A stretch of DNA of 64,000 nt from Gammaproteobacteria bacterium (GTDB lineage Bacteria > Pseudomonadota > Gammaproteobacteria > Pseudomonadales > Pseudohongiellaceae): assembly GCA_029244985.1 (NCBI GenBank), contig JAQWQD010000017.1, positions 62,001 to 126,000 on the forward strand, written 5' to 3'. Shown in pieces: positions 32,438-64,000 of this stretch; position 1 is the first letter of the stretch, and every line of letters begins with the position of its first letter. A program made the translations under genes and the position numbers. The notes under the pieces were generated by a model. The model searched no databases. It was given only the letters and a program-made list of their open reading frames with translations, and was not told where the DNA came from.

Positions 32438-33460
32438 ATGAACAAATTACTTGTTTCTATTATTGCTGTGCTAACTATTTCTTTGATTCCAATGCTCACT
32501 CTCGGACAGGATGATTATCCTCGAACCGCCTCTGGGAAACCCGATTTTAACGGTCATTATGATATTTCGACCTTGACTCCTTTTGAGCGACCTACTTCAT
32601 ATGGAGATCGGTTATCCCTCAACGGAGAGGAAGTTCAGGCGCTTCGGGATCGCGAGCTAAATATTCGAGCGCAAGACGCTATTTTGAGTGACCCTGACCG
32701 AGAGGCTCCAGAGGAAGGGGGTAATATCGGCTCCTATAATGATTTCTGGTTTGATCGTGGCAACGATGGTTTTGTGATTGATGGCCAGTACCGTACTTCC
32801 ATTCTTACCTATCCTGAAAATGGACGGATGCCAGCTCGGACAGCAGAAGGTCAGGCGAAGGCTGATGCTGCGCCTAAATTTGCCTGGCCTGAAAGGGATG
32901 GAGCCTGGTGGTTAGAAACTGGTGATACACCTTATGATGGTCCTGAGAATCAAACATTAGCAGTACGTTGTATTTACCACCAGCCGGCAACAATTCCAAT
33001 TACACCTCGGGTTTATAATAACCTGAAGACTATCGTGCAGACAGATGAGTATTTGATGTTATACATCGAATGGATGCATTGGGCCCGCATAATTCGTATT
33101 GATGATGCAGAACATAATACCGAAACTCTCGCCACTTTTGATGGTGACTCAATCGGTTGGTGGGACGGAGATACACTGGTAGTGGAAACAGTTAATTTTA
33201 TGGATCAACCTCATCAGCTAGCCGACCGTAAAGTAATTGAGCGATTCCGTCCTGATGTTAATGGTGGGTTAATCTATAGTTTTAATGTCGAGGACGCAGA
33301 TTACTCTGACGCTTACAGTGGCGAAATGGTATGGCCTCGATCGAATCAGGTACCTTATGAATACGCTTGTCATGAAGGTAATTATGCGATGTCTGCGACT
33401 CTCATGGGCGCCCGCGTTAGGGAAAAGGAATATCGTGAAGAGAATGGGTCGGAAGATTAG
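32438..33460 (+). CDS. Uncharacterised secreted family, type A copy 1
   Basis: 340 aa exported protein with a signal peptide ending LTLGQ. It belongs to a widespread but functionally unknown secreted family that is heavily expanded in Acidobacteria and present in marine gammaproteobacteria. Hallmarks are the start PRTASGKPDFNGHYD, the central DGDSIGWWDGDTLVVETVNF, and the end PYEYACHEGNYAMSATLMGAR. AGGAG precedes the ATG. It is very close to the copy at 39273-40298 and more distant from the type B copies at 34695-35678 and 58345-59349. A conserved Cys and His near the end (YACHEGNY) and the acidic central motif could bind metal. It follows the DUF1592/DUF1552 set by 101 bases. Confidence 0.8.
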   Translation: MNKLLVSIIAVLTISLIPMLTLGQDDYPRTASGKPDFNGHYDISTLTPFERPTSYGDRLSLNGEEVQALRDRELNIRAQDAILSDPDREAPEEGGNIGSYNDFWFDRGNDGFVIDGQYRTSILTYPENGRMPARTAEGQAKADAAPKFAWPERDGAWWLETGDTPYDGPENQTLAVRCIYHQPATIPITPRVYNNLKTIVQTDEYLMLYIEWMHWARIIRIDDAEHNTETLATFDGDSIGWWDGDTLVVETVNFMDQPHQLADRKVIERFRPDVNGGLIYSFNVEDADYSDAYSGEMVWPRSNQVPYEYACHEGNYAMSATLMGARVREKEYREENGSED

Positions 33461-39062: not shown

Positions 39063-39272
39063 TTCTAAATTATCCTTGTGGTTAGAAAGTGACACAGTGT
39101 ACTCAATTCAAAATAGCTGTAACAGTTGAATTATTCCTAGTTAAAAATAAGGTTATGCTAGACTCTGGGAAGTTTAATCAGCTATCAGGCGTCAATATCA
39201 TCAGCGTCAAGAACGGAGTTGGATTAAGACTGGGTGCTTCTCGGTCACCTTCCCTTCCTAAAGGAGGAAATA

Positions 39273-40298
39273 ATGAACATCATCACAAGACCCTTGGTTT
39301 TAGCTATCTTTCTATGTTTGGCGCCGCTGCTTGGCTTGGCACAAGACGAATTTCCACGCACGGCCTCTGGAAAGCCAGATTTTAACGGGAATTACGATAT
39401 TTCGAGTCTTACGCCGTTTCAGCGACCGGTGGTTTATGGTGATCGACTCTTTCTCAACGAGGACGAAGTGCAGGCTTTGCGTGATAGAGAAATGGGTATC
39501 AGGGCGGAAGACGAGGAATTAAGTGACCCAGAACGCGGCGCGCCTGAAACTGGTGGCAATATTGGTTCCTATAACGATTTTTGGTTCGATCGCGGAAATG
39601 ATGGTTTCACAATTGATGGACAATACCCTACTTCTATTCTGACCTATCCTGAAGATGGGCGGATGCCAGCTCGAACGCCAACAGGGCAGGCGAAGGCGGC
39701 AGCGGCACCGAAGTTTGCTTGGCCGGAACGAGACGGCGCTTGGTGGTTAGAAACGGGCGACCAGCCTTACGATGGGCCGGAAAACCAAACATTAGGAGTG
39801 CGGTGCATATATCAAGGGGCAGCATCGATACCAATTCGACCGCTGGTCTACAACAACTTGAAAACAATAGTTCAAACAGATGATTACTTAATGATCTATG
39901 TAGAGTGGATGCATTGGGCGCGTATTATTCGAATTAACGATGAAGCCCATAAACCTGAAGATATGGCTACCTATGACGGCGATTCCATTGCATGGTGGGA
40001 AGGTGACACTTTGGTTGTAGAGACAAAAAACTTTCTTGATCAACCTTTGCAACCGGCGGATCGCGTAGTTGTCGAACGATTTAGCCCAATAAATGCAGGA
40101 GGATTACTTTATAGTTTCACCGTCGAAGACGCTGACTATACAGATCGTTACGGCGGAGAATTAGTATGGCCGAAGTCTGACCAGGTTCCTTATGAGTACG
40201 CCTGCCACGAAGGTAATTATGCTATGAGTGCTACTCTCATGGGCGCAAGAATTCGCGAAAAGGAATACCGAGAAGAACAGGGGTTGAGTAACGATTAG
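39273..40298 (+). CDS. Uncharacterised secreted family, type A copy 2
   Basis: 341 aa exported protein, signal peptide ending LGLAQ. It is nearly collinear with the protein at 32438-33460: EFPRTASGKPDFNGNYDIS, WFDRGNDGFTIDGQYPTSIL, DGDSIAWWEGDTLVVETKNF and VPYEYACHEGNYAMSATLMGAR. Identity is high through the whole mature protein, implying a more recent duplication than that separating types A and B. ATG 39273 is the start because AAGGAGG lies just before it. It is monocistronic by appearance, divergent from the GlcG-type gene. Function unknown. Confidence 0.82.
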   Translation: MNIITRPLVLAIFLCLAPLLGLAQDEFPRTASGKPDFNGNYDISSLTPFQRPVVYGDRLFLNEDEVQALRDREMGIRAEDEELSDPERGAPETGGNIGSYNDFWFDRGNDGFTIDGQYPTSILTYPEDGRMPARTPTGQAKAAAAPKFAWPERDGAWWLETGDQPYDGPENQTLGVRCIYQGAASIPIRPLVYNNLKTIVQTDDYLMIYVEWMHWARIIRINDEAHKPEDMATYDGDSIAWWEGDTLVVETKNFLDQPLQPADRVVVERFSPINAGGLLYSFTVEDADYTDRYGGELVWPKSDQVPYEYACHEGNYAMSATLMGARIREKEYREEQGLSND

Positions 40299-46471: not shown

Positions 46472-46576
46472 GATAAAAGACCCGTTTTAGCGCAATGGAG
46501 CGTGTGTAGCTGTATTTTTGGAGCAAGCCCAATTATGCTTATTCGAACCTAACAATAAGGAAAGTGAGGAGTGGAC

Positions 46577-47695
46577 ATGTTATCCAAGAAAGTGATTCTA
46601 GCCCTATTAGGGCCAGCCCTGATTTCTGGGGCAGTTTCTGCCCAGACAGGTAATGCAATATCTGGTACGGGTTTGCCTAATCCAAATCCTGTCGTGACCC
46701 AAAATTGGGGTGATTTGCCTGCAGGCCGTGAGTGGGGGTCCACCGCAGGTGTAGATATAGACCCGACCGACGGCCACGTTTGGGCCTATGAGCGATGCGG
46801 AGCCAGCAATTTTGGAGGGGGAGTGCCAATTAACTGCGACACTAATCCTGTAGATCCAATTTTTAAGTTCGATCGCAATACAGGTGAAGTGCTCGCTAAT
46901 TTTGGTGGAGGCTTGATGCAAACGCCTCATGGCATTCATGCTGACGCTGAAGGAAATGTGTGGGTGACGGATTTTGCTGCAAACGCTGACGGAACCAAAG
47001 GTCATCAAGTGCATAAATTCAGTGCAAATGGCGACTTATTAATGAGCTTGGGCACCCCAGGACAAGCTGGCAGCGGCCCAGGAGTTTTTAATCAGCCTAA
47101 CGACGTTATTGTCGGTCCGGATGGAAGTATATATGTCTCTGATGGCCATAATGGCCAAGGCATGACGAGCAATGTAGCCATGGAAGAAGGACGTGCAGCG
47201 GGAGACACCGCGCGGATATTAAAATTTGCTCCAGACGGAACTTTTATTAAGCAGTGGGGAGAAATTGGTGTGCGCCATGGTGAGTTTCGAACGCCACATG
47301 CTATGGAATTTGATTCGAAAGGTCGTTTATGGGTAGCAGATCGCGGCAATCATCGTCTAGAGCTGTTTGATCAAGACGGTAATTACCTTGAATCGCGCTA
47401 TGCCTATGGTCGTATTAGTGGCATTTTTATAACTGACAATGACTTGGTTTATGCGATTGATTCTGAGTCGGGTCCGACAAATCATGTTGGCTGGCGTAAT
47501 GGCGTTCGCATAGGGCATATCGATGAAGACAGAATTTCTGGCTTCATTCCTCCGTTTGAAAGGCCTGACCGCGTGTATCAAGGTACGGCAGGTGAAGGGG
47601 TTGCGGTTGATGCGAGTGGTAATGTGTTTGCAGCCGAAGGACCCAATTCCCTCAGTTGGGCAGGTGGCGCTTTCACTAAGTATTCAACTCGCTAG
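46577..47695 (+). CDS. PAL-like NHL beta-propeller 2
   Basis: 372 aa exported propeller, signal peptide ending AVSAQ, closely related to 33555-34592. PAL-like positions are Arg73 (VWAYERCG), His118 (QTPHGIHADAEGNVWVTD), the SDG of IYVSDGH, and His241 (RTPHAMEFDSKGRLWVADRGN). The third zinc His is absent (GVAVDASGNVF). Extra His near the SDG turn (DGHNGQG) might substitute. ATG 46577, with GAGGAG five bases upstream, is preferred to GTG 46571. A strong terminator follows immediately, so it is probably a single-gene unit. Likely periplasmic; the actual substrate is unknown. Confidence 0.8.
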   Translation: MLSKKVILALLGPALISGAVSAQTGNAISGTGLPNPNPVVTQNWGDLPAGREWGSTAGVDIDPTDGHVWAYERCGASNFGGGVPINCDTNPVDPIFKFDRNTGEVLANFGGGLMQTPHGIHADAEGNVWVTDFAANADGTKGHQVHKFSANGDLLMSLGTPGQAGSGPGVFNQPNDVIVGPDGSIYVSDGHNGQGMTSNVAMEEGRAAGDTARILKFAPDGTFIKQWGEIGVRHGEFRTPHAMEFDSKGRLWVADRGNHRLELFDQDGNYLESRYAYGRISGIFITDNDLVYAIDSESGPTNHVGWRNGVRIGHIDEDRISGFIPPFERPDRVYQGTAGEGVAVDASGNVFAAEGPNSLSWAGGAFTKYSTR

Positions 47696-49224: not shown

Positions 49225-50517
49225 ATGTTAATTTATAAGAAAGTCTCTGTTTTTGTGAGCGCGATATTTACGTTAGCACTCGCCCCGTCAGCCTTGGCAC
49301 AACAAGCCCCCGCTCCTACATTTGCTGAGCATGTTGCACCGATCATTTATGATAACTGTGTTGAATGTCATCGGCCTGGATCGATTGCGCCCATGACACT
49401 CATTGATTATGAGACTGTGCGCGCTTGGGGCCCGGTTATCAAAGATCGGGTAGAGCAGCGCAAGATGCCACCTTATTTTGTTGATAAAACAGTAGGTGTG
49501 CAGTCTTTCGAAGATGATCGCTCTCTGACTGACGTTGAAATTGCGACAATCTCTGCCTGGGTGGATGGAGGCGCTCCTCAAGGGGATATGAGCAATATGC
49601 CTGCAGTTCCTCAATTTCAGGATGACGTAGCTTGGACGCTCGCAGACGAGATGGGTCGGCCTCCTGACTTGATCATACCGATTCCAGAGCCATTCACTGT
49701 GCCTGCCGATGGCCCGAATTGGTGGATGACGTTTTACAGTGAGACTGGTCTCACTGAGGATCGCTGGATAAAAGCTTTTGAAACCAAACCTTCGGCAGAA
49801 GGCTTTCCAGTGGTGCACCATGCTGTAACTTCTATGGAGTTTCCTGAGGGTGGAGGTGGCTTTCTAAGCGAGTATGCCTTAGGTAAGACTGCTGATATTA
49901 ATCCGCCTGGGACCGGGCAATTAATTAAAGCCGGTACTCGATTGAATTGGAATGTGCATTATGCTGCCAGTCCCGATGGTCTTGATCGCACTGACCGCAC
50001 TCGACTCGGTCTCTGGTTTTTGCCAGAAGGGGAAGATCCAGAGCATGAGTTGATTCGTTCTCATATGGCAGACAATGAAGATCTTGATCTTCCAGGTGGT
50101 CAGGAAGTTATTCGCACTGACGGATATGAGTTCCTCGATAAAAATATTCGAATAACAGCATTTCAACCGCACCTACATAATTTGGGAACACGGCAGTGTC
50201 TTGAAGTGATCTACCAGGACAACCGACGCCAAACTTTAAGTTGTGCTGATTGGGATTTTGGTTGGCATATCGCCTATAACTATACTGAGGACGTGCAGCC
50301 TCTGATTCCAAAAGGTTCAATGATGCATGTCACAAGTTGGTTTAATAATTCTGCCAGTAATCCGTGGGCTGGAGATTCCAGAAATTGGGTAGGATTCGGT
50401 CAGAGATCTACCGACGACATGTCATTCTCCTGGATTAGCTATTATGAGCTCACAGATGAGGAATATGAATCGGCTGTTGCTGAACGCCATGGGCAGTTAG
50501 CGGCAGGAAGTGATTAA
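49225..50517 (+). CDS. Cytochrome c - copper type II (PHM-like) monooxygenase fusion
   Basis: 430 aa exported protein, signal peptide ending SALAQQ. Residues about 30-120 are a monoheme cytochrome c domain (CVECH, Cys45-His49). Residues about 150-410 resemble the copper type II ascorbate-dependent monooxygenases (PHM, DBM). All six PHM copper-ligand positions can be matched: His198-His199 (VVHHAVTS) for 107/108, His245 (NVHYAASPD) for 172, His316 and His318 (QPHLHNLG) for 242/244, and Met399 (RSTDDMSFSWISYY) for 314. The heme domain could replace ascorbate as donor. AGGAG precedes the ATG. It is cotranscribed with the gene at 50553. Substrate inferred only from the presence of PAL-like proteins. 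Confidence 0.82.
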   Translation: MLIYKKVSVFVSAIFTLALAPSALAQQAPAPTFAEHVAPIIYDNCVECHRPGSIAPMTLIDYETVRAWGPVIKDRVEQRKMPPYFVDKTVGVQSFEDDRSLTDVEIATISAWVDGGAPQGDMSNMPAVPQFQDDVAWTLADEMGRPPDLIIPIPEPFTVPADGPNWWMTFYSETGLTEDRWIKAFETKPSAEGFPVVHHAVTSMEFPEGGGGFLSEYALGKTADINPPGTGQLIKAGTRLNWNVHYAASPDGLDRTDRTRLGLWFLPEGEDPEHELIRSHMADNEDLDLPGGQEVIRTDGYEFLDKNIRITAFQPHLHNLGTRQCLEVIYQDNRRQTLSCADWDFGWHIAYNYTEDVQPLIPKGSMMHVTSWFNNSASNPWAGDSRNWVGFGQRSTDDMSFSWISYYELTDEEYESAVAERHGQLAAGSD

Positions 50518-50552: not shown

Positions 50553-51533
50553 ATGTTGGTTCGAATTCTAACGTTAAAAATACGATTAATTAGCAGTGCC
50601 TTTCTGGCGCTACTTATTTTAATCAATACACCCGATGTTACAGCGCAAACTTTGCATAGGTTTGGTCAGAGCATTCAACCGATTTTTGAAGGATTTGAGC
50701 GAAATACCGATGGCACTTTTACTATGTGGTTTGGGTATCTCAACAGAAACTATGATGAAACTCCTACCGTTGCTGTCGGAGACTTAAACGGCTTCTTTGC
50801 TGCCAATGGTGTGAATACTGCCGGCCCTGTCGATCAGAATTTGCTACTAAGTGATCCTGGTCCTCAAGACAGGGGACAGCCAACGTACTTCTATCCGCGC
50901 CGACAACAGTTCGTGTTTGAGGTAGTCCTGCCCGCAGATTTTGTAGGCAACGAATTAGTTTGGTCAATTACACATAATGGCGAAACACGGACCGCGGTTG
51001 GGACTCTTGAAAGAGAGAATATTTGGGCTGTGGATGAGGGGGTTTGGAGCGCTAATAGAGGCAGAGGTACTGGCGGTCGCACTGAAGTTGAATATGCAAA
51101 TGACCCTCCCGCGATGCGCTTAGTGGGTATCGAAGGACAAATATCTGCTGCTGTTGGCAGACCAGTTAATCTCCGCGTATTTGCTTCTGATGATGGTGTG
51201 CCTGGCCCCTATGAACGTGATCGTAGAGGTAGAATGGCCCCGTTGCCAAATAATCTACCAGAAGTGGGAGGTGGTATTGGTCGCAACTCGCCGAAGGAGC
51301 AAGGCGTAGTAAATTATGTTGCTGCGGATGAAACTGGATTGGCACTTACTTGGATAAAGTACCGTGGCCCCGGTCTAGTCCTTTTTGACAATGCAATTAG
51401 TGCGCTCAATCCATCCGGAGAGGAAGTTGTCAGCTCGGCAACTTTTACACAGAGTGGTACTTATGTGTTACGTGCCTACGCGGATGATTCTACCTACACA
51501 ACTTATTCAGAGTTGAATGTCATAGTTCAATAA
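50553..51533 (+). CDS. Exported protein of unknown family, 326 aa
   Basis: I do not recognise a family. A long signal peptide (hydrophobic 14-31, cleavage after VTAQ) precedes a beta-rich protein with short Gly- and Arg-rich loops. Its features are TMWFGYLNRNYDE, QDRGQPTYFYPRRQQFVFEV and a C-terminal Ig-like half with PVNLRVFASDDG and SGTYVLRAYADDSTYTTY. The C-terminal segment reads like a bacterial Ig or cadherin-type domain. AGGAGG precedes the ATG. It lies 35 bases after the copper monooxygenase fusion, so it is probably a partner or accessory for it in the periplasm or on the surface. Confidence 0.75.
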   Translation: MLVRILTLKIRLISSAFLALLILINTPDVTAQTLHRFGQSIQPIFEGFERNTDGTFTMWFGYLNRNYDETPTVAVGDLNGFFAANGVNTAGPVDQNLLLSDPGPQDRGQPTYFYPRRQQFVFEVVLPADFVGNELVWSITHNGETRTAVGTLERENIWAVDEGVWSANRGRGTGGRTEVEYANDPPAMRLVGIEGQISAAVGRPVNLRVFASDDGVPGPYERDRRGRMAPLPNNLPEVGGGIGRNSPKEQGVVNYVAADETGLALTWIKYRGPGLVLFDNAISALNPSGEEVVSSATFTQSGTYVLRAYADDSTYTTYSELNVIVQ

Positions 51534-51602: not shown

Positions 51603-52817
51603 TTAAGGGTCTGGCACAGCATCTTCAACCGTTAATGGGTTTAAATAAGCACCATCGGTAATTCCAGTTTTTCTCATGGCGATTCCAGTTAAACATTCCT
51701 GTACGGCGCGATTAGCATTCATAACTGTCGTGTAGCCAGGATCAACTAGTGGGTTGACTTCTACCAATTCGAAGCCTATTAAATTGTTCTCAGTACATAG
51801 GCCGCGTATTAAAGGGTATAGCTCTCGGGTTGTAAGTCCTCCGGGTTCTGGTGTGCCTGTGCCTGCGGCATAAGCTGGGTCAAGAACGTCGATATCAAGA
51901 GAAATGTATAAGTGTTCGGGTCCATCATTAGCTTCAGCAAGAATCCTTTCCGTGACCACATCCCAGCCATCGCGCTCAATCTCTACCATGGTGTGATAGC
52001 GGAAATTATTTTCTCGCATCCATTCAAAGCCTTCTTCACCAGGCCAGTATCCTCTTAATCCGACTTGGATGTAGTTTTGGCCTAATACATGCCCTTCTTC
52101 AATTAACCGAAAGACTGGTTGAGCGTGGGAAATTAAATGCCCGCTGTATCCTTCTGTCGCAGCGTCGTAATGTGCATCAAAATGAATGACACCGACGTTT
52201 TCCTTGCCGTAAATGTCAGCCACTCCAGCAACATCTGGATATTCAAGAGAATGATCACCGCCAATCACAATTGGAATGGCTCCGGTTGATGCTATCTCTC
52301 TAACCAGTTCTCGAACTGGTGGCATACTGCGTTCTACACTGAAGCGATCGATCGGCGAGTTCCCATAGTCCACAGCTTTGAGCTCGCGTTTCCAGGAAAC
52401 CCCTGTGTGCATGTGGGGCAGGCCTCCGCCTCCGCCCACACCCAAACTTTCCCGGATAGCACCGGGTCCAAACGCTGCTCCGCGCATACCTACGCCCATG
52501 TCGAGAGGTGCACCCAATATTGCGACGTCGACTTCGCCTGCGATTAAATCTTCAGGGTTAATCGCAATTGGTAGCCCAAAAAATGTTTGTACGCCTGAAT
52601 TGCGGAGTCTACCGGGATAGAAAGGGCCTGGCTCTCTATCTGGGTCGTTGGCTGGGTCCCGCAATTGGCTCCAAACATCATAGGTTGGATCATTGGAGTT
52701 GAGCGGAATGGTCCCGTTGTTGCGATCAAAGACACTGGGAGTGAAATCTTGCCCAATGACTATCCAGATTGGTATCAAAGCGCAAAGCAGAACAAAAAGT
52801 TTTTTGCTTGAATTCAT
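51603..52817 (-). CDS. Exported ureohydrolase (agmatinase-like)
   Basis: 404 aa ureohydrolase with an N-terminal signal peptide (1-22, cleavage after VIG) and about 60 further N-terminal residues before the catalytic core. Metal motifs are complete: GGDHS, HFDAHYD and SLDIDVLDPAYAAGTGTPEPGG. An export signal on a urea-releasing Mn enzyme is unusual, since agmatinases and arginases are normally cytoplasmic. It may hydrolyse guanidino compounds in the periplasm; the extended N-terminus also recalls guanidine hydrolases, but I cannot decide. It is distinct from the cytoplasmic-looking ureohydrolase at 1-648. Divergent from the DUF305-LVIVD gene. Confidence 0.9.
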   Translation of the reverse strand: MNSSKKLFVLLCALIPIWIVIGQDFTPSVFDRNNGTIPLNSNDPTYDVWSQLRDPANDPDREPGPFYPGRLRNSGVQTFFGLPIAINPEDLIAGEVDVAILGAPLDMGVGMRGAAFGPGAIRESLGVGGGGGLPHMHTGVSWKRELKAVDYGNSPIDRFSVERSMPPVRELVREIASTGAIPIVIGGDHSLEYPDVAGVADIYGKENVGVIHFDAHYDAATEGYSGHLISHAQPVFRLIEEGHVLGQNYIQVGLRGYWPGEEGFEWMRENNFRYHTMVEIERDGWDVVTERILAEANDGPEHLYISLDIDVLDPAYAAGTGTPEPGGLTTRELYPLIRGLCTENNLIGFELVEVNPLVDPGYTTVMNANRAVQECLTGIAMRKTGITDGAYLNPLTVEDAVPDP

Positions 52818-53061: not shown

Positions 53062-55563
53062 ATGAGGTTTGGTTACATCAAAATCGCATCATTGTTGTTA
53101 TTGGCATTATCAGGGGTAATGTCAGGGCAGAGCCTGGCACAAGTGCCAATTATTCAGCCAGGGGCACCAGGGCAACCAGGGCGAGTGATTACTGCCGAAG
53201 AAGCTGCAGACTTGGCTGCAATTCAATATTCAGCCGGTGATGTTATGTTTTTACAGGGCATGATTTCTCATCACGCGCAAGCAATGGAAATGTCTGCCTT
53301 AGTTGATTCACGCACAAATCGTGAGCCTATGCAGTTGTTGGCTCAGCGTATTTCGCTTTCCCAAGAAGATGAAATTTCTATGATGCAAGATTGGCTAGAA
53401 GAGCGAGGGCTCGACGTTCCCACGACAGACGCCCATCATTTAGATGATTTTAATTTAATGCCCGGCATGCTTAGTACCGAAGATATGACTTCGTTAGAAC
53501 AGGCAGATGGAAACGAATTTGATAGATTGTTTCTCGAATTTATGATCGAGCATCATGAGGGCGCCTTGGAAATGGTCGATAACCTGCTGGATCAACGAGG
53601 TGCAGCTCAAGAGCCAATTCTTTATGCGTTCACTTCTGATGTAACATCTGATCAGAGTGCTGAAATAGACAGAATGGACTTAATGCTTGCAGGATTTTCG
53701 CCCGATCCTAGAGTTAATCTTTCCCCAGGATTTCGCGATGCTGCTGAGGCGGCATTAAACATGCAGTTAGTAGCCTCTCTTCCTAAGCCTGAAGGTTTTT
53801 TCGACCCTGATAATCCCTCAGGGTTGCCCAATAGGGCAGAATCTGAAGACGCATTGCAGCCTGACGAAGAACAAGAAAATTCTACAGAGGAAGAGGTGAG
53901 CTCCGAAGATGCGGCAAGTGCGTTGGCGGAGATCCCTGCGGATGAAGAAGAGGGAGAAGATGAAAATGCGGACCCTCGTCCATCTTTGTTGAGTTTTTCT
54001 AATACCGATTTATTATTCAGCGGCACTAACTTGGTTGCAGGAAACTATCATGGATTTAACACTTATGACCTTAGCAATCCCCGCGCACCTCAGCTCTTAA
54101 GTTCCGTGGTTTGTCCTGGTGGCCAGGGTGACGTGTCTCTGGTTGGTCATCTATTAATAATGTCAGTACAAGAAACTCGTGGCCGGTTAGATTGTGGTCT
54201 CGAGGGTGTTCCCGAGCCAACTAGTCAGGAGCGTATCCAGGGTATTCGAATATTCGACGTAAGCGATTTCAGCATGCCGCTTCAGGTGGGTGCAGTGCAA
54301 ACTTGTCGTGGTTCGCATACTCATACGGTAGTGGGTCAGCCAGATGGAAGTAACAATGCCTATGTATACGTTTCCGGTACTTCTAGAGTTCGAGATGATG
54401 AGGAGTTGGCTGGGTGTTCTGATGACTCACCTTTCGAAAATCCAGATTCAGCTTTATTTCGAATCGAGGTAATTGAGATCCCAATGGATCGGCCACAAGA
54501 CGCGCGTATTGTTAATCGACCTTTTATTTTCTCTGATCCAACTAGCGGCGTCTTAGCTGGGCTTTGGGAGGGCGGTGATCATGGCCCTGAAACGCAGCGC
54601 ACCAGCGAAACGAATCAATGTCATGATATTACTACTTTTCCTGGCATTGGCTTAGCGGCTGGGGCTTGCTCTGGTAATGGCATATTATTAGATATTTCTG
54701 ATCCTTCGAATCCGGAGAGACTAGACCAGGTAATCGACCCAGGATTTGCGTATTGGCATTCAGCGACCTTTAATAATGATGGCACCAAGGTAATCTTTAC
54801 CGATGAATGGGGCGGCGGGGGCAGGCCTCGCTGTCGTGCGCTGGACCCATTAGATTGGGGTGCCGATGCTTTTTACGACATAGTAGATGGCAAACTCGAA
54901 TTCAGATCACATTACAAAATGTCTGCACCTCAAACGGATACTGAAAACTGCGTTGCTCACAATGGCTCCCTGATACCGGTTCCCGGCAGGGATATTTTTG
55001 TTCAAGCCTGGTATCAAGGTGGTGTGTCGGTGGTGGATTTTACTGATTCTACCAATCCTGTAGAGATAGCTTTTTTTGACCGAGGCCCTCTAGATGAAGA
55101 TGAGTTAATCACTGCAGGTTATTGGTCTACATATTGGTATGGTGGTTACATTTACGGTACTGAGATCGCAAGGGGTTTAGACGTTTTTGCCTTGAACCCT
55201 AGTGACTACTTAACCGCAAATGAAATCGCTGCAGCTTCTCTGCAAGAGGCTAATTTAACGGTAAATGCACAGACTCAGGTGCAAGTGGTTTGGCCAGCGG
55301 TGCCTGTGGTGGCTCGCGCTTATATCGACCAGTTACAGCGCAGTAATGTAATCAGTAATGATCAGTTACAACAATTGGACTCTGTCTTAAGTGAGGCTGA
55401 AAGAGCATTTTCAAGCAACTCTTCCGATAGGTCTCTTGCTAGTCAACTAAACGAACTAGCGGAAAATTTAGAAGAGCAGGGGAATGACATAAGCGGAAGA
55501 AGTAGAGCCAGATATCTTTTATTAAGTCAAAATCTTGAAGAAATGGCTAGGCAGTTACGTTAG
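53062..55563 (+). CDS. DUF305 - LVIVD repeat fusion protein, exported
   Basis: 833 aa with a signal peptide ending SLAQ. Residues about 45-215 are DUF305 (ferritin-like helical), with the paired motifs QGMISHHAQAMEMS and FMIEHHEGALEMVD that may bind metal. Residues about 265-310 form a very acidic linker. Residues about 315-720 form an LVIVD-type beta-propeller (GNYHGFNTYDLSNPRAPQLLSS, GVSVVDFTDSTNPVEIAFFD). The C-terminal 100 residues are helical and Gln/Ser-rich. Cys in the propeller (CPGGQG, CRGSH, CHDI, CSGNG) could make disulfides. AGGAG precedes the ATG. The function of this domain combination is not known to me; surface redox or metal handling is possible. Confidence 0.88.
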   Translation: MRFGYIKIASLLLLALSGVMSGQSLAQVPIIQPGAPGQPGRVITAEEAADLAAIQYSAGDVMFLQGMISHHAQAMEMSALVDSRTNREPMQLLAQRISLSQEDEISMMQDWLEERGLDVPTTDAHHLDDFNLMPGMLSTEDMTSLEQADGNEFDRLFLEFMIEHHEGALEMVDNLLDQRGAAQEPILYAFTSDVTSDQSAEIDRMDLMLAGFSPDPRVNLSPGFRDAAEAALNMQLVASLPKPEGFFDPDNPSGLPNRAESEDALQPDEEQENSTEEEVSSEDAASALAEIPADEEEGEDENADPRPSLLSFSNTDLLFSGTNLVAGNYHGFNTYDLSNPRAPQLLSSVVCPGGQGDVSLVGHLLIMSVQETRGRLDCGLEGVPEPTSQERIQGIRIFDVSDFSMPLQVGAVQTCRGSHTHTVVGQPDGSNNAYVYVSGTSRVRDDEELAGCSDDSPFENPDSALFRIEVIEIPMDRPQDARIVNRPFIFSDPTSGVLAGLWEGGDHGPETQRTSETNQCHDITTFPGIGLAAGACSGNGILLDISDPSNPERLDQVIDPGFAYWHSATFNNDGTKVIFTDEWGGGGRPRCRALDPLDWGADAFYDIVDGKLEFRSHYKMSAPQTDTENCVAHNGSLIPVPGRDIFVQAWYQGGVSVVDFTDSTNPVEIAFFDRGPLDEDELITAGYWSTYWYGGYIYGTEIARGLDVFALNPSDYLTANEIAAASLQEANLTVNAQTQVQVVWPAVPVVARAYIDQLQRSNVISNDQLQQLDSVLSEAERAFSSNSSDRSLASQLNELAENLEEQGNDISGRSRARYLLLSQNLEEMARQLR

Positions 55564-58344: not shown

Positions 58345-59349
58345 TTAGTTTTGGGCCGCTGCTTCTGCAGCCATATTTTCCTCAGCGCGGTGTCCAGAAA
58401 GAATGTAAGTCATTCCATAATTACCTTCGTGGCAAGCATACTCGTAGATTTTATCGGGTGTTTTATCAAAGATAATTTCTCTGGTATACGGAGCCGTGTA
58501 ATTGCCTGGGTCTTTAGATGTAATCTGATACTGCAAAGCATTGTCGCCAACTCGTGTAAGTCTTTCCACGTTGACTTTTTCAACTGTGCGAGGGCTAGTA
58601 CTGCTTCTTTCTAAATAGTTAGTAGTTTCTACGACCAGAGTGTTTCCTTCCCACCACCCTCTGGAATCGCCGTGCCAAAGTTTTACACCAGCATCGACAT
58701 GAGGGTTATCTATTAATGGGACGATACGAACGTCATGAGCCATTTCCTGGATAATCGCTACAGTTTCTTTGGTTTGCACAATTTGCCAATAACTGTTGTA
58801 ACCAGCCGATAGCCGTGGCGCACCAAAAGAAACACAACGTTCACCTAAAGGACGATCTTCCCAAGTATCTGCCGGATGCAAACGACGGTGTTCTGCTAAG
58901 TCTCTAGCGGCAGCAATCGCCTCTTCAGTCCTAGGAGGAAATTGACCATTGGGCGGATCGATAATTTGGGACGTGCGACGATGTATGGTCCGAGCCGCCA
59001 TCCACTGCGAATCATAATTTCCGGTCGTTGGATCATACGAGGTAATTTCATTAGCAAAGATAGCCTGCAGTACGCCTTCGCCGAAGAGTGCATCTTCCCC
59101 TGCGTTTTCAATCTCAGTGAGGCGAGTCTGCAAAAAATTAACATCTTCGTCAGTCAAATATTCTTTGTCACCAAAGACCTCCGGTCTTTCAATAGGAGTG
59201 ATAGTATTGTTCTCCCAAACGCCTTGTAAGTCCGGATGACCGTCTATAGTCCGTGGCATGGAATAGTCACTTGAATCTTGGGCGAAGGTTGCTACTGCCA
59301 GTAGGGATGTGACAATAAAGGCGCTGCAAATTTTTACTGTATTTTTCAT
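58345..59349 (-). CDS. Uncharacterised secreted family, type B copy 2
   Basis: 334 aa exported protein (signal peptide ending TFAQD), closest to 34695-35678. Hallmarks are HPDLQGVWENNTITPIERPEVFG, RCVSFGAPRLSAGYNSYWQIVQTKE, the central LWHGDSRGWWEGNTLVVETTNY and YEYACHEGNYGMTYILSGHR. AAGG lies nine bases before the ATG. It is monocistronic, ended by the terminator at 58301-58328. Together with three other copies it shows that this unknown family is amplified in this genome. Confidence 0.82.
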   Translation of the reverse strand: MKNTVKICSAFIVTSLLAVATFAQDSSDYSMPRTIDGHPDLQGVWENNTITPIERPEVFGDKEYLTDEDVNFLQTRLTEIENAGEDALFGEGVLQAIFANEITSYDPTTGNYDSQWMAARTIHRRTSQIIDPPNGQFPPRTEEAIAAARDLAEHRRLHPADTWEDRPLGERCVSFGAPRLSAGYNSYWQIVQTKETVAIIQEMAHDVRIVPLIDNPHVDAGVKLWHGDSRGWWEGNTLVVETTNYLERSSTSPRTVEKVNVERLTRVGDNALQYQITSKDPGNYTAPYTREIIFDKTPDKIYEYACHEGNYGMTYILSGHRAEENMAAEAAAQN

Positions 59350-60678: not shown

Positions 60679-62820
60679 ATGAATTTTAAGCACTGCTTAT
60701 CGATTTTTAATGTTGGATTGGGCGTTAGCGTGATGGTTTTCTGCACTACATTGCGTGCTCAAGTAACCCTAGGTACAGAAAATGGTGAATGGCGTTATAT
60801 CGGAGGGACTATCGGTCACGCTCGATACTCGCCGCTGGACCAGATCAATGCTTCAAACTTTAATGAGTTAGAACAAGCTTGGATTTGGAGAACTGATAAC
60901 TATGGTCCCAATGTTGATTATTTTTCGCGTTCAACTCCAATTTATGTGGATGGTATTTTATATACGGTCGCGTCTCCAAGGCGTCAGGTAATTGCAATGG
61001 ACCCCGCTACAGGGGAAACATTGTGGACGTTTAGAGAGCCTGAAACGATTCGGCATCAACGATCTCCACGTCAAGCATATGGCAAGGGAGTTACTTACGG
61101 TGAGATCGATGGACGAGGTGTCATTTATATTACGACCCCTGGATTCTTTTTGTGGGCGCTAGATGCAAAAACGGGTAGACCGCTTGAAAACTGGGGCGGT
61201 GCATTTCCAGTGGGCGGTTTTCCGGAGACGGGAGTAATAGACCTTATTCCCTATTTGGTTGATGACTGGGGGCCTTGGCAAGATTATTTAGTTGCTGGGG
61301 GTGAGTATGATCCTGATTACGGGATCCCGCGCGAGTTAGGTATGGTTACCGCATCAGCCCCTCCGATTATAGTTAATGGTGTGCTTGTTGCTTTGGTTGG
61401 GCATCAACCTAGTTATGGGCAAACCCGCATAGAGAATGTCCCCGGGGATATTATGGGGTTTGATATGGCGACTGGGGAGAGGCTCTGGAAGTTTCATGTG
61501 ATTCCGCGTCCAGGTGAAGTTGGCCATGAGACATGGCATAACGATGCCTGGCGTTTTTCTGGTGATATGTCCACGTGGGCACCTGCATCTGCCGACCCAG
61601 AATTAGGGTTAGTGTACTTGGTTACGAATGCCTCGACGGTTCAGTCTTATGCGGGGCATCGACCGGGAGACAATTTATTTGGTGGCAGTTTATTGGCCAT
61701 TGACGTTCAAACTGGTGAACGACGTTGGCATTTCCAGATTCATCGCAGTGATCAATGGAACTATGATTTACCGACGCCTCCGCTTCTTATGGACCTTACT
61801 GTAGACGGTCAGCAGATTCCGGCGGCAGTTCAGAATACAAAACAGGGATTAGTATTCGCATTTAATCGAGAAACGGGTGAACCCATTTGGCCAATAGAAG
61901 ATAGACCTGTTATTCAAACCGAGGTGCCGGGCAATTACACGGCAGCAACCCAACCCTATCCAACCTGGCCAGAACCAGTTGATCGTATTACTTTCGACGG
62001 AATAACAGATGAATTTATCGTTGATTTTACGCCGGAGTTAAAGGAACAGGCTTTAACAATCCTTAATGGGTACAGGGTGGGAGGATTATACGTTCCCGCC
62101 TTGCCTAATACCTATGACGGTGAATATGTCAATAATGTGGGTTGTCTGGGGGGTGGTAACATAATTAATCATCCACCTGCCGCGGATCCAACGAATGGGA
62201 TGATGTTCAATTCCCATCGACGTAATTGTTTTGCTCCAGGGTTTATGAGGCCTACTAACGGGGTCGATCGAGATAATCCTAATTACCCAGAACCTGGTGC
62301 CGGGGGTGCGACGCCAAACAGCACGCCAACTACAGGTATGACACCGGTTGGCTGGCTGCCTGGAGGTGGAGGTGGTCTTCCGACCATTGATGGCCTTCCT
62401 ATTTATAAACGTATGAATAACCAACTGACTGCCTACCAGATGAATTCTGGGGAAAAGGCTTGGTCACTGCCTGTAGGACAAACACCGGCCGAATACGAGG
62501 ACCATCCCTTATTGCAAAATATAGAGGTTCCAAATGTGGGCGGATCAGGTTGGTCTGTCCAGATGGTTTCTGGCGATTTGTTAGTGCAAACCAGAGCGTT
62601 GAGTGAAGGTATGGCGCAAATAGAGCCAGATGCCCCGCTTACTCTTAATGCGCGCGATAAAATGACAGGGGAGATTGTGGGATCTGTGCCTATGCCCGCT
62701 CCAGGTCAGTACGGGATGATGACTTACATGCATAGAGGGAAACAATATATTGTGGTACAGATTGGTAGCTCAAGAACAGATTATCCTGGTGCACTTGTTG
62801 CTTATCGTCTGCCAAACTAA
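60679..62820 (+). CDS. PQQ-dependent dehydrogenase (quinoprotein 3)
   Basis: 713 aa exported PQQ-dependent propeller dehydrogenase, signal peptide ending LRAQ. The mature start is GEWRYIGGTIGHARYSPLDQINASNF. Blade motifs AMDPATGETLWTF, GFDMATGERLWKF and AIDVQTGERRWHFQ recur. Compared with quinoprotein 1 it has an insert at about 475-560 that is Gly-, Pro- and Asn-rich with Cys (NVGCLGGGN, HRRNCFAPG), perhaps a disulfide-linked loop near the active site. No cytochrome domain. AAGAGGA precedes the ATG. Probably in one operon with the upstream hydrolase. A hairpin terminator follows. Confidence 0.9.
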   Translation: MNFKHCLSIFNVGLGVSVMVFCTTLRAQVTLGTENGEWRYIGGTIGHARYSPLDQINASNFNELEQAWIWRTDNYGPNVDYFSRSTPIYVDGILYTVASPRRQVIAMDPATGETLWTFREPETIRHQRSPRQAYGKGVTYGEIDGRGVIYITTPGFFLWALDAKTGRPLENWGGAFPVGGFPETGVIDLIPYLVDDWGPWQDYLVAGGEYDPDYGIPRELGMVTASAPPIIVNGVLVALVGHQPSYGQTRIENVPGDIMGFDMATGERLWKFHVIPRPGEVGHETWHNDAWRFSGDMSTWAPASADPELGLVYLVTNASTVQSYAGHRPGDNLFGGSLLAIDVQTGERRWHFQIHRSDQWNYDLPTPPLLMDLTVDGQQIPAAVQNTKQGLVFAFNRETGEPIWPIEDRPVIQTEVPGNYTAATQPYPTWPEPVDRITFDGITDEFIVDFTPELKEQALTILNGYRVGGLYVPALPNTYDGEYVNNVGCLGGGNIINHPPAADPTNGMMFNSHRRNCFAPGFMRPTNGVDRDNPNYPEPGAGGATPNSTPTTGMTPVGWLPGGGGGLPTIDGLPIYKRMNNQLTAYQMNSGEKAWSLPVGQTPAEYEDHPLLQNIEVPNVGGSGWSVQMVSGDLLVQTRALSEGMAQIEPDAPLTLNARDKMTGEIVGSVPMPAPGQYGMMTYMHRGKQYIVVQIGSSRTDYPGALVAYRLPN

Positions 62821-62880: not shown

Positions 62881-64000
62881 CTAACGAGGAACATAAGGTC
62901 TTTTGACAATGTGCGCTGGGTCTGAATCTGACCGTGGCTCTAGCTTTTGGGGTCGGCCAGCTTGGTTGTCTGTGCCATATAGATTCCCATCTTCGTCCAC
63001 AGATAGAGAGTGCATTTCAATCCAAAAGTCTGGCCCTTCAGTCGGGAGAGGCCAAGTGTACTCTCTAGAGCCATCTAGATTAAATTGCACAATTTTGGGA
63101 GGGTTCAAATCTGTTACCCAAGCACTAGTTTCTCCAACAGTAATATCTAATGGCATGCCTAGATCACCCCATGTCGACACATACTCGTACGTAGGGTAGT
63201 TTTCAGAGTTCCTGCGAGCGATTTGTTGAAATACCTTTACATTGCGATGGTCTCTATCTAGCGCATAAAGATGTTCGTCAGGACCCATAGCTAAACTATG
63301 AACGCTAGCAAATTGATCAATTTCGTCGCCAGCTTCGCCAAATTCAGAATGATAGCTGCCATCAGGATTGCGAACCACAATACGCTTATTATCGCCTAGA
63401 CCATCTGCAATTAAGAATTTTCCATCTGGAAGAAAAGCAACATCTTGAGGTTGGTGATAATGACTTTCATCATTGCCAGCAACATTTTTCTCTCCTAGAG
63501 TCATTAATAGCTGTTCGCCATCATTTGAGAAAACGTAAATAATGTGCCCAGTTTCATCTATAACCCAAACTCGTTTTTCATTGTCATAAGGGCTTTGGCG
63601 AATGCGATGTGGGCCGGGCCCATCGGTGCCCGTAAACAGATGATCCCATTGGTCCCAAACTTCCAAGACATTGCCATCACTATCAATAATATAGATGCAG
63701 TTGCGCCATACTCGACCACGTCCCCTTAATACATTCCAACCTAAAGAACCTGCAAAAGTAGTGTATTCGTTGGGAAGAGGGTCAGGTAGTTCAGTTTCAC
63801 CACGTTGTAGAAAGAAAATTCTATCTTTAGATTCTACCAACACCCCAGAATTTCCGCCCCACGTAAACCCGTCCTGAGCAAAGGGCTGCATCCAGGATTC
63901 TGTGGTGAAGTTGTAGGGGCTCGGACCAATTACACCTGTGTCTTGTGCATTGACGGTGCCCATTAATATCAAAAATAGCAGCGCTGCGGCGTTTACTTTT
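62881..64000 (-). CDS. PAL-like NHL beta-propeller 3, 5' end beyond window
   Basis: Exported six-bladed propeller, at least 372 aa. The frame is open to the window edge: before the internal TTG at 63972 the codons read KVNAAALLF, completing a signal peptide that ends VNAQ, so the true start lies just past base 64000. Counting from the TTG, PAL-like positions are all filled: Arg57 (FFLQRGETE) for PAL Arg533, His122 (GPHRIRQ) for His585, His225 (ASVHSLAMG) for His690 and His321 (EMHSLSVDEDGNLYG) for His786. It is thus the only one of the three propellers here with a complete zinc triad and the best candidate for real lyase activity. A terminator follows on the minus strand. Confidence 0.82.
   Translation of the reverse strand, partial: KVNAAALLFLILMGTVNAQDTGVIGPSPYNFTTESWMQPFAQDGFTWGGNSGVLVESKDRIFFLQRGETELPDPLPNEYTTFAGSLGWNVLRGRGRVWRNCIYIIDSDGNVLEVWDQWDHLFTGTDGPGPHRIRQSPYDNEKRVWVIDETGHIIYVFSNDGEQLLMTLGEKNVAGNDESHYHQPQDVAFLPDGKFLIADGLGDNKRIVVRNPDGSYHSEFGEAGDEIDQFASVHSLAMGPDEHLYALDRDHRNVKVFQQIARRNSENYPTYEYVSTWGDLGMPLDITVGETSAWVTDLNPPKIVQFNLDGSREYTWPLPTEGPDFWIEMHSLSVDEDGNLYGTDNQAGRPQKLEPRSDSDPAHIVKRPYVPR

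Follow-up and report, generated by a model that had tools for sequence, protein, structure and literature searches.

A bacterial family of cytochrome c proteins fused to a PHM-like copper domain, with a linked partner gene

Results

The window analyzed here is a 64,000-nucleotide stretch (positions 62,001 to 126,000) of contig JAQWQD010000017.1 from a gammaproteobacterial genome of the family Pseudohongiellaceae (GenBank assembly GCA_029244985.1), and it carries a gene whose product joins a c-type cytochrome domain to a copper domain resembling that of peptidylglycine alpha-hydroxylating monooxygenase (PHM). This fusion protein, a second gene that adjoins it, and a PAL-like propeller encoded nearby are the main subjects of this report (Table 1). 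PHM and dopamine beta-hydroxylase (DBH) are known as animal enzymes for hormone and transmitter synthesis. A preliminary description of the locus had proposed that the bacterial protein retains all six copper ligands of PHM, that its heme supplies the electrons, and that together with the PAL-like proteins it forms a two-step system of oxidative N-dealkylation.

Table 1. Positions in the window of the fusion gene, its predicted parts and the two neighboring genes discussed with it
Feature	Position	Strand	Basis
PAL1, PAL-like NHL propeller; linked in close relatives alone, outside the core unit	46571..47695	+	
Cytochrome c-PHM fusion protein, 430 amino acids, predicted secreted	49225..50517	+	Sequence, model, alignments
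Likely Sec signal peptide, residues 1-25, ...SALA-QQ	49225..49299	+	Sequence reading without a signal-peptide program
c-type cytochrome domain, about residues 26-122; CVECH at 45-49; Met81 likely axial ligand	49300..49590	+	
PHM/DBH-like double jelly-roll copper domain, about residues 131-410	49615..50454	+	
His198-His199, corresponding to PHM His107/His108, CuH site	49816..49821	+	hhalign and family alignment
His245, corresponding to PHM His172, CuH site	49957..49959	+	hhalign and family alignment
His316-x-His318, corresponding to PHM His242/His244, CuM site	50170..50178	+	hhalign and family alignment
Met399, corresponding to PHM Met314, CuM site	50419..50421	+	hhalign and family alignment
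Partner gene, 326 amino acids, predicted secreted; N-terminal beta domain and C-terminal PKD/Ig-like domain	50553..51533	+	

The copper domain and its ligands

A fold search with the structure model of the window protein returned PHM/DBH as the sole high-scoring fold, and the modeled domain has the double jelly-roll of the copper type II monooxygenase superfamily (PHM/DBH/TBH/MOX). When a family profile (49 sequences, of which 45 were used by the program) was aligned with rat PHM by hhalign, the ligands not being specified to the program, all six ligand positions paired in register (local alignment to a single target, E-value 2.2e-4), so that the predicted sites follow the superfamily pattern of His-His-His at CuH and His-His-Met at CuM. 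For a survey of conservation, a family alignment was compiled from loci L017-L099 and the window, in which 103 frames match the model, 98 reach its C-terminal end and 79 fall below 90% identity. All six ligands are kept in 75 of these 79 relatives, with one further relative gapped at the Met, and in 17 of the 18 paralogues from the same genome that cover the copper domain (this count leaves aside the window protein, one truncated copy, one 98-amino-acid fragment and two cytochrome-only matches). The fold search, the unguided register and this conservation together bear out the initial assignment of a PHM-like domain with every ligand position occupied.

In three of the 79 relatives, the CuM His pair is replaced by Arg and by Asn or Ser, and in one the Met by Val, with the CuH histidines kept; these proteins (L028:1960-3723, L098:5052-6740 and L099:3415-5316) come from three genomes and form a single clade (100/99), possibly an electron-transfer or regulatory variant.

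Pfam detects the domain poorly. The C-terminal half of the window protein matches Cu2_monoox_C (PF03712) weakly (E-value 0.0067; 16.4 bits, under the cut-off of 23), and this cut-off is passed by one paralogue of the redoxin-containing type described below (26.3 bits) and by one stand-alone relative (33.2 bits). We read the sub-threshold score as a limit of the Pfam model, and what we claim is a fold and a likely chemistry rather than database membership.

The cytochrome domain

The cytochrome part of the model contains helices at residues 33-45, 62-67, 69-77 and 103-114. Of the 79 relatives, 72 have C45, C48 and H49, and the other seven show gaps there (six stand-alone PHM proteins and the incomplete frame of L055), that is, CXXCH is kept in 72/72 sequences that cover it; position 81 is Met in 73 of the 79 and gapped in six (73/73 of the covering sequences). 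The conserved attachment motif with a candidate axial Met identifies the domain as a c-type cytochrome with predicted covalent heme, as had been proposed from CVECH in the single sequence. The CXXCH motif and a downstream Met are shared with Class I c-type cytochromes and Cytochrome_CBB3, from which this domain differs in that family matches are weak and that it is joined to a copper monooxygenase-type domain: Pfam Cytochrome_CBB3 (PF13442) matches 19 of 30 family members at an E-value of 0.05 or below, and the window protein itself lacks a match to it at that threshold.

Comparison with PHM and DBH

The window protein differs from rat PHM (PDB 1phm, 1sdw, 6ala) in having a cytochrome c domain in front and no PAL domain, in the replacement of the glycine-binding residues, and in belonging to a bacterial, multi-copy family with a linked partner gene. 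It differs from human DBH (PDB 4zel) in the same respects, except that the cytochrome c stands here where DBH has a DOMON domain. As for the framework of the domain, PHM has five disulfides. The window protein has four Cys in all, two of them in CXXCH, which excludes the disulfide-rich framework of PHM proper.

R240, N316 and Y318 of PHM (letters verified in the rat sequence) are the residues that hold the carboxylate of the substrate glycine. By hhalign they correspond to Q314, F401 and W403 in the window protein, which thus lacks the glycine-binding set of PHM proper. Among the 79 relatives, the R240 position is occupied by Q in 50, R in 16, E in seven and others, and the Y318 position by W in 46, Y in 11, H in eight, L in seven and others. 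Constant metal ligands combined with a variable pocket make it probable that the copies differ in their substrates. The two redoxin-type paralogues of L027 have Arg and Tyr at the R240 and Y318 positions, and a PHM-like substrate is therefore conceivable for them and less so for the window protein.

Copper sites built from His and Met in a predicted periplasmic, multi-copy protein would also suit copper binding or handling, with an incidental heme and no enzymatic activity. The PHM/DBH two-site arrangement, the conserved cytochrome and the many paralogues with a variable pocket are unexpected for a storage protein, and we regard this explanation as extremely improbable.

In the open literature searched at the level of titles and abstracts, which leaves most subscription papers outside and an earlier account possible, a cytochrome c-PHM fusion is not described. 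Of the six publications found there that name the Pfam copper monooxygenase models, five, judged by title, concern animals and one concerns receptor prediction. A paper on scytonemin (PMC2726228) was set aside as not relevant, the copper monooxygenase in the part seen being a tyrosinase. The fold and the probable chemistry are of a known kind. What sets the family apart is the fused heme, the linked partner, the expansion in bacteria and the apparent existence of a split form.

Copy number, distribution and domain architecture

The 3.2 Mb genome of the marine bacterium that contains the window (the own genome below) yielded 24 fusion matches, which we count as 20 genes and one contig-end fragment, since one gene is matched in two pieces and two larger proteins are matched in their cytochrome part alone. 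Together with six genomes selected for carrying a fusion locus (Vicinamibacterales L064, Pseudohongiella L050, OM182 L034, Acidobacteria L063, Acidimicrobiia L083 and Gemmatimonadetes L053), it forms a set of seven genomes with 11-33 fusion matches each after merging of pieces. The closest named record by fusion protein is OM182 clade MED-G28 (L034), with 98% identity. In the protein database the fusion has at least 3,954 relatives (7,996 candidates scored); among the 120 listed, none has a precomputed Pfam domain, the few that are named are called "cytochrome c" or "hypothetical", and NCBIfam names none of 30 family members. At an E-value of 1e-20 or below, a fusion match was found in 9 of 145 genomes sampled from the order, and a match was likewise found in 4 of 274 sampled from the class, the own genome being counted in both. 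Because some of each genome's candidates were scored, the copy numbers from the two samples are minimum values. The family occurs patchily and has expanded locally. One fusion gene within an acidobacterial clade lies on a contig titled Chloroflexi UBA6622 (L062), perhaps a mislabeled or contaminated metagenome-assembled genome or a recent transfer.

Several paralogues in the own genome (L026, L027, L028, L030) are triple fusions, in which a redoxin-like N-terminal region precedes the cytochrome c and PHM domains; Pfam redoxin/AhpC-TSA models match those of L026 and L027. The parts also occur separately. Genome G044 (L096) encodes a 313-amino-acid redoxin-cytochrome protein amid three stand-alone PHM-domain proteins, and G110 (L097) has one cytochrome match amid three PHM matches. 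In the tree, for which the program warned that some long branches meet, the six stand-alone PHM proteins form one clade (100/100) within the redoxin-type fusions, sister to L027_6460 of the own genome. Given this nested position, the simplest account is that the fusion is older and the split secondary, with the parts staying together; the root was placed for drawing only, and the direction of the split therefore rests on parsimony. This apparent split is the best genomic evidence that the cytochrome and copper domains would work together.

In a paralogue subgroup (L020:9156-10553, L021, L022, L024 and L025), the chain continues beyond the copper domain and ends in a CPLC tail, which may be an additional metal or redox site.

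A linked partner gene

The tightly linked gene of the fusion is its neighbor listed last in Table 1, not the PAL-like propeller. At 57 of 61 fusion loci from GTDB, the partner has the same orientation as the fusion and begins no more than about 0.45 kb downstream of it (L062, L063 and L065 rest in this count on one of two locus analyses), and at the other four (L039, L051, L055, L081) the contig ends within 430 bases of the fusion gene. A search of the own genome with the window partner as a single query gave nine matches, each of them next to a fusion gene. Across the seven genomes, 82 of the 91 partner copies detected with profile A4 lie within 1 kb of a fusion, where about two would be expected at random placement; 81 of the 82 are on the same strand, 57 downstream and 24 upstream. 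Partner copies number 91 against 142 fusions in the seven genomes and 10 against 21 in the own genome, where about half of the fusion copies have a partner.

The partner protein has no Pfam or NCBIfam match. It has 1,626 relatives; of the 120 listed, a single one contains a Pfam domain (PF14312), and not one is named for a function. The domain division given in Table 1 comes from a fold search with its structure model (pLDDT 83.9). No Cys, His or Met is conserved in the A4 profile alignment, and we therefore read the protein as a binding or docking partner and not as a redox protein; judging by these residues, its role is probably docking, substrate presentation or anchoring.

PAL-like proteins

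PAL1 is a true relative of PAL: hhalign aligns it with rat PAL (PDB 3fvz) with an E-value of 2.3e-31, and H585, H690 and R706 are kept in all 23 bacterial PAL-like sequences compared, PAL1 included. R533 is paired with an Arg of PAL1 by hhalign and falls in a gap in the multiple alignment. The active site is altered in other respects. The catalytic Tyr654 is missing from all 23 sequences (His in 20, among them PAL1, Glu in two and Leu in one); at the position of His786, which is the third zinc ligand, 20 of the 23 have Glu, again including PAL1. A second propeller in the window, PAL62 (62881-63972), keeps all three zinc His positions, unlike the other 22, and has Leu for Tyr654.

The linkage of PAL1 to the fusion is confined mostly to one lineage. 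Within flanks of up to 10 kb (shorter at some loci), matches of at least 78% identity stand near the orthologous fusion at 11 of 19 gammaproteobacterial loci; at the other loci of the fusion orthologue a match was found in 3 of 42, at 26-43% identity, and none in 39. Co-occurrence in the order sample, examined at thresholds of 1e-20 and 1e-30, is weak, with both genes in 5 of the 145 genomes, PAL1 alone in two and the fusion alone in four. The 26 PAL1 matches in the own genome were counted as 25 genes, five of which have a fusion within 5 kb, against an expectation of 1.4 (P 0.01, uncorrected), and two within 2 kb (0.7 expected, not significant); given this mild enrichment, a loose link is possible. 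A PAL-like protein was rejected as the partner in the core unit on account of the weak, lineage-limited linkage and the lost active-site residues.

These observations bear on whether fusion and propeller could carry out a two-step PHM/PAL-type oxidative N-dealkylation of N-acylglycines or peptidylglycines, as the preliminary description had supposed. The PAL-type alignment of PAL1 and its 22 relatives with their shared residues, the gammaproteobacterial synteny, the excess of PAL-like genes within 5 kb and the Arg and Tyr of the L027 paralogues are all compatible with it. For PHM proper one expects a PAL lyase within the same polypeptide or as a required partner, and the fusion has neither; moreover, all three glycine-binding residues are replaced in the window protein, Tyr654 and mostly His786 are lost from the propellers, non-gammaproteobacterial loci generally lack PAL1, and each gene occurs without the other. 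The idea was not borne out, and we now consider it very unlikely.

Other genes in the window

An uncharacterized and probably exported family of about 340 amino acids with the motif YACHEGNY is represented at 32438-33460, 39234-40298 and 58345-59349; the own genome has 54 matches to it at an E-value of 1e-10 or below, with copies near several fusion genes, and the two copies scanned against Pfam (at 32438 and 39234) gave no match. On the reverse strand, 51603-52817 encodes a protein that, as read from its sequence, has a signal-peptide-like start and the ureohydrolase-type motifs HFDAHYDA and SLDIDVLDP, possibly an exported arginase/agmatinase-like enzyme. The 833-amino-acid product of 53062-55563 contains DUF305 at residues 60-209, followed by a long C-terminal part without a Pfam match, and 60679-62820 encodes a quinoprotein that resembles PQQ dehydrogenases and the "acido-empty-quinoprotein group A" model, with all scores under the curated cut-offs.

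Discussion

We think it likely that the window protein is a periplasmic copper monooxygenase of the PHM/DBH type with its own electron donor. Each turnover of PHM or DBH takes two electrons, delivered singly, and in PHM a distance of about 11 A separates the two coppers. Hemes of the c type carry one electron at a time and are typical of the periplasm, and ascorbate is not generally made by bacteria; we therefore propose that respiratory electrons pass from heme to CuH and on to CuM and O2. The exported fusion protein would bind one c-type heme and two coppers, with CuH held by His198, His199 and His245, and CuM by His316, His318 and Met399. The heme would receive single electrons from the respiratory chain or from a soluble periplasmic carrier and pass them one at a time via CuH to CuM, taking over the job that ascorbate does in animals, and CuM would activate O2 and then hydroxylate a small substrate at one of its C-H bonds. 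The secreted two-domain beta partner may serve as a docking, substrate-presenting or anchoring protein, and the fusion genes, copied many times per genome, may constitute an enzyme toolkit for different dissolved compounds. The early suggestion that the heme supplies the electrons is backed by the apparent natural split in two relatives, as far as cooperation of the two domains is concerned; the electron path itself is what we infer.

Several observations weigh against this reading. The hhalign probability for the match to the single PHM sequence is 45%. Searching PDB by sequence, with the protein or a 30-row profile as query, retrieved no PHM and chance matches alone, which is why fold search and profile alignment were used; for a redoxin-type paralogue, a redoxin-like protein was the sole match. 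The structure model contains low-confidence stretches in its cytochrome part, and the clade without the CuM His pair implies that some members are no normal monooxygenases. With regard to the partner, 9 of the 91 copies have no fusion within 1 kb, four of these being on contigs that lack a fusion match, and one more orphan copy was found in G137 (L095). Profile A4 was built largely from fusion-adjacent copies, which could favor the detection of such copies and make the count of distant, unlinked ones too low. Among redoxin-type fusions a partner is mostly absent: one of five in the own genome (at C5) has one nearby, and that partner adjoins another fusion.

The clade without a CuM site, the redoxin-like domain of some paralogues and the ability of a heme near copper to pass electrons forward or back would fit a copper domain that is no hydroxylase but acts as an oxidase, a reductase or a sensor, with the cytochrome as its partner in either direction, for instance reducing O2, peroxide or a nitrogen oxide or moving substrate electrons to the heme. 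We regard this as unlikely, because the CuM ligands, Met399 included, are kept in nearly all relatives, the characterized members of the superfamily are, as far as is generally known, monooxygenases, and the variation of the pocket among paralogues suits varied substrates better than a single small-molecule reaction.

If the window protein is a heme-fed monooxygenase, as we favor, a broader view of the family can be put forward tentatively, as a prospect that we hold to be close to, though not quite, an even one. The family might be a bacterial analogue of cytochrome P450 that is built on copper and located in the periplasm, made up of self-sufficient monooxygenases with two coppers and a heme that feeds them, many of which have a secreted partner of their own. 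Marine gammaproteobacteria, Acidobacteriota and members of other phyla, with 11-33 versions in a genome, would use it to attack many different dissolved compounds, and it so far has no family name. It would be a bacterial branch barely detected by Pfam, with a built-in heme where animals use ascorbate. The partner family, with its 1,626 relatives, gains its first functional context. If this holds, the heme signal could be used to track the path of electrons between the two distant coppers, which has long been debated, and uncultured bacteria of the ocean and soil would possess a class of extracytoplasmic C-H hydroxylases.
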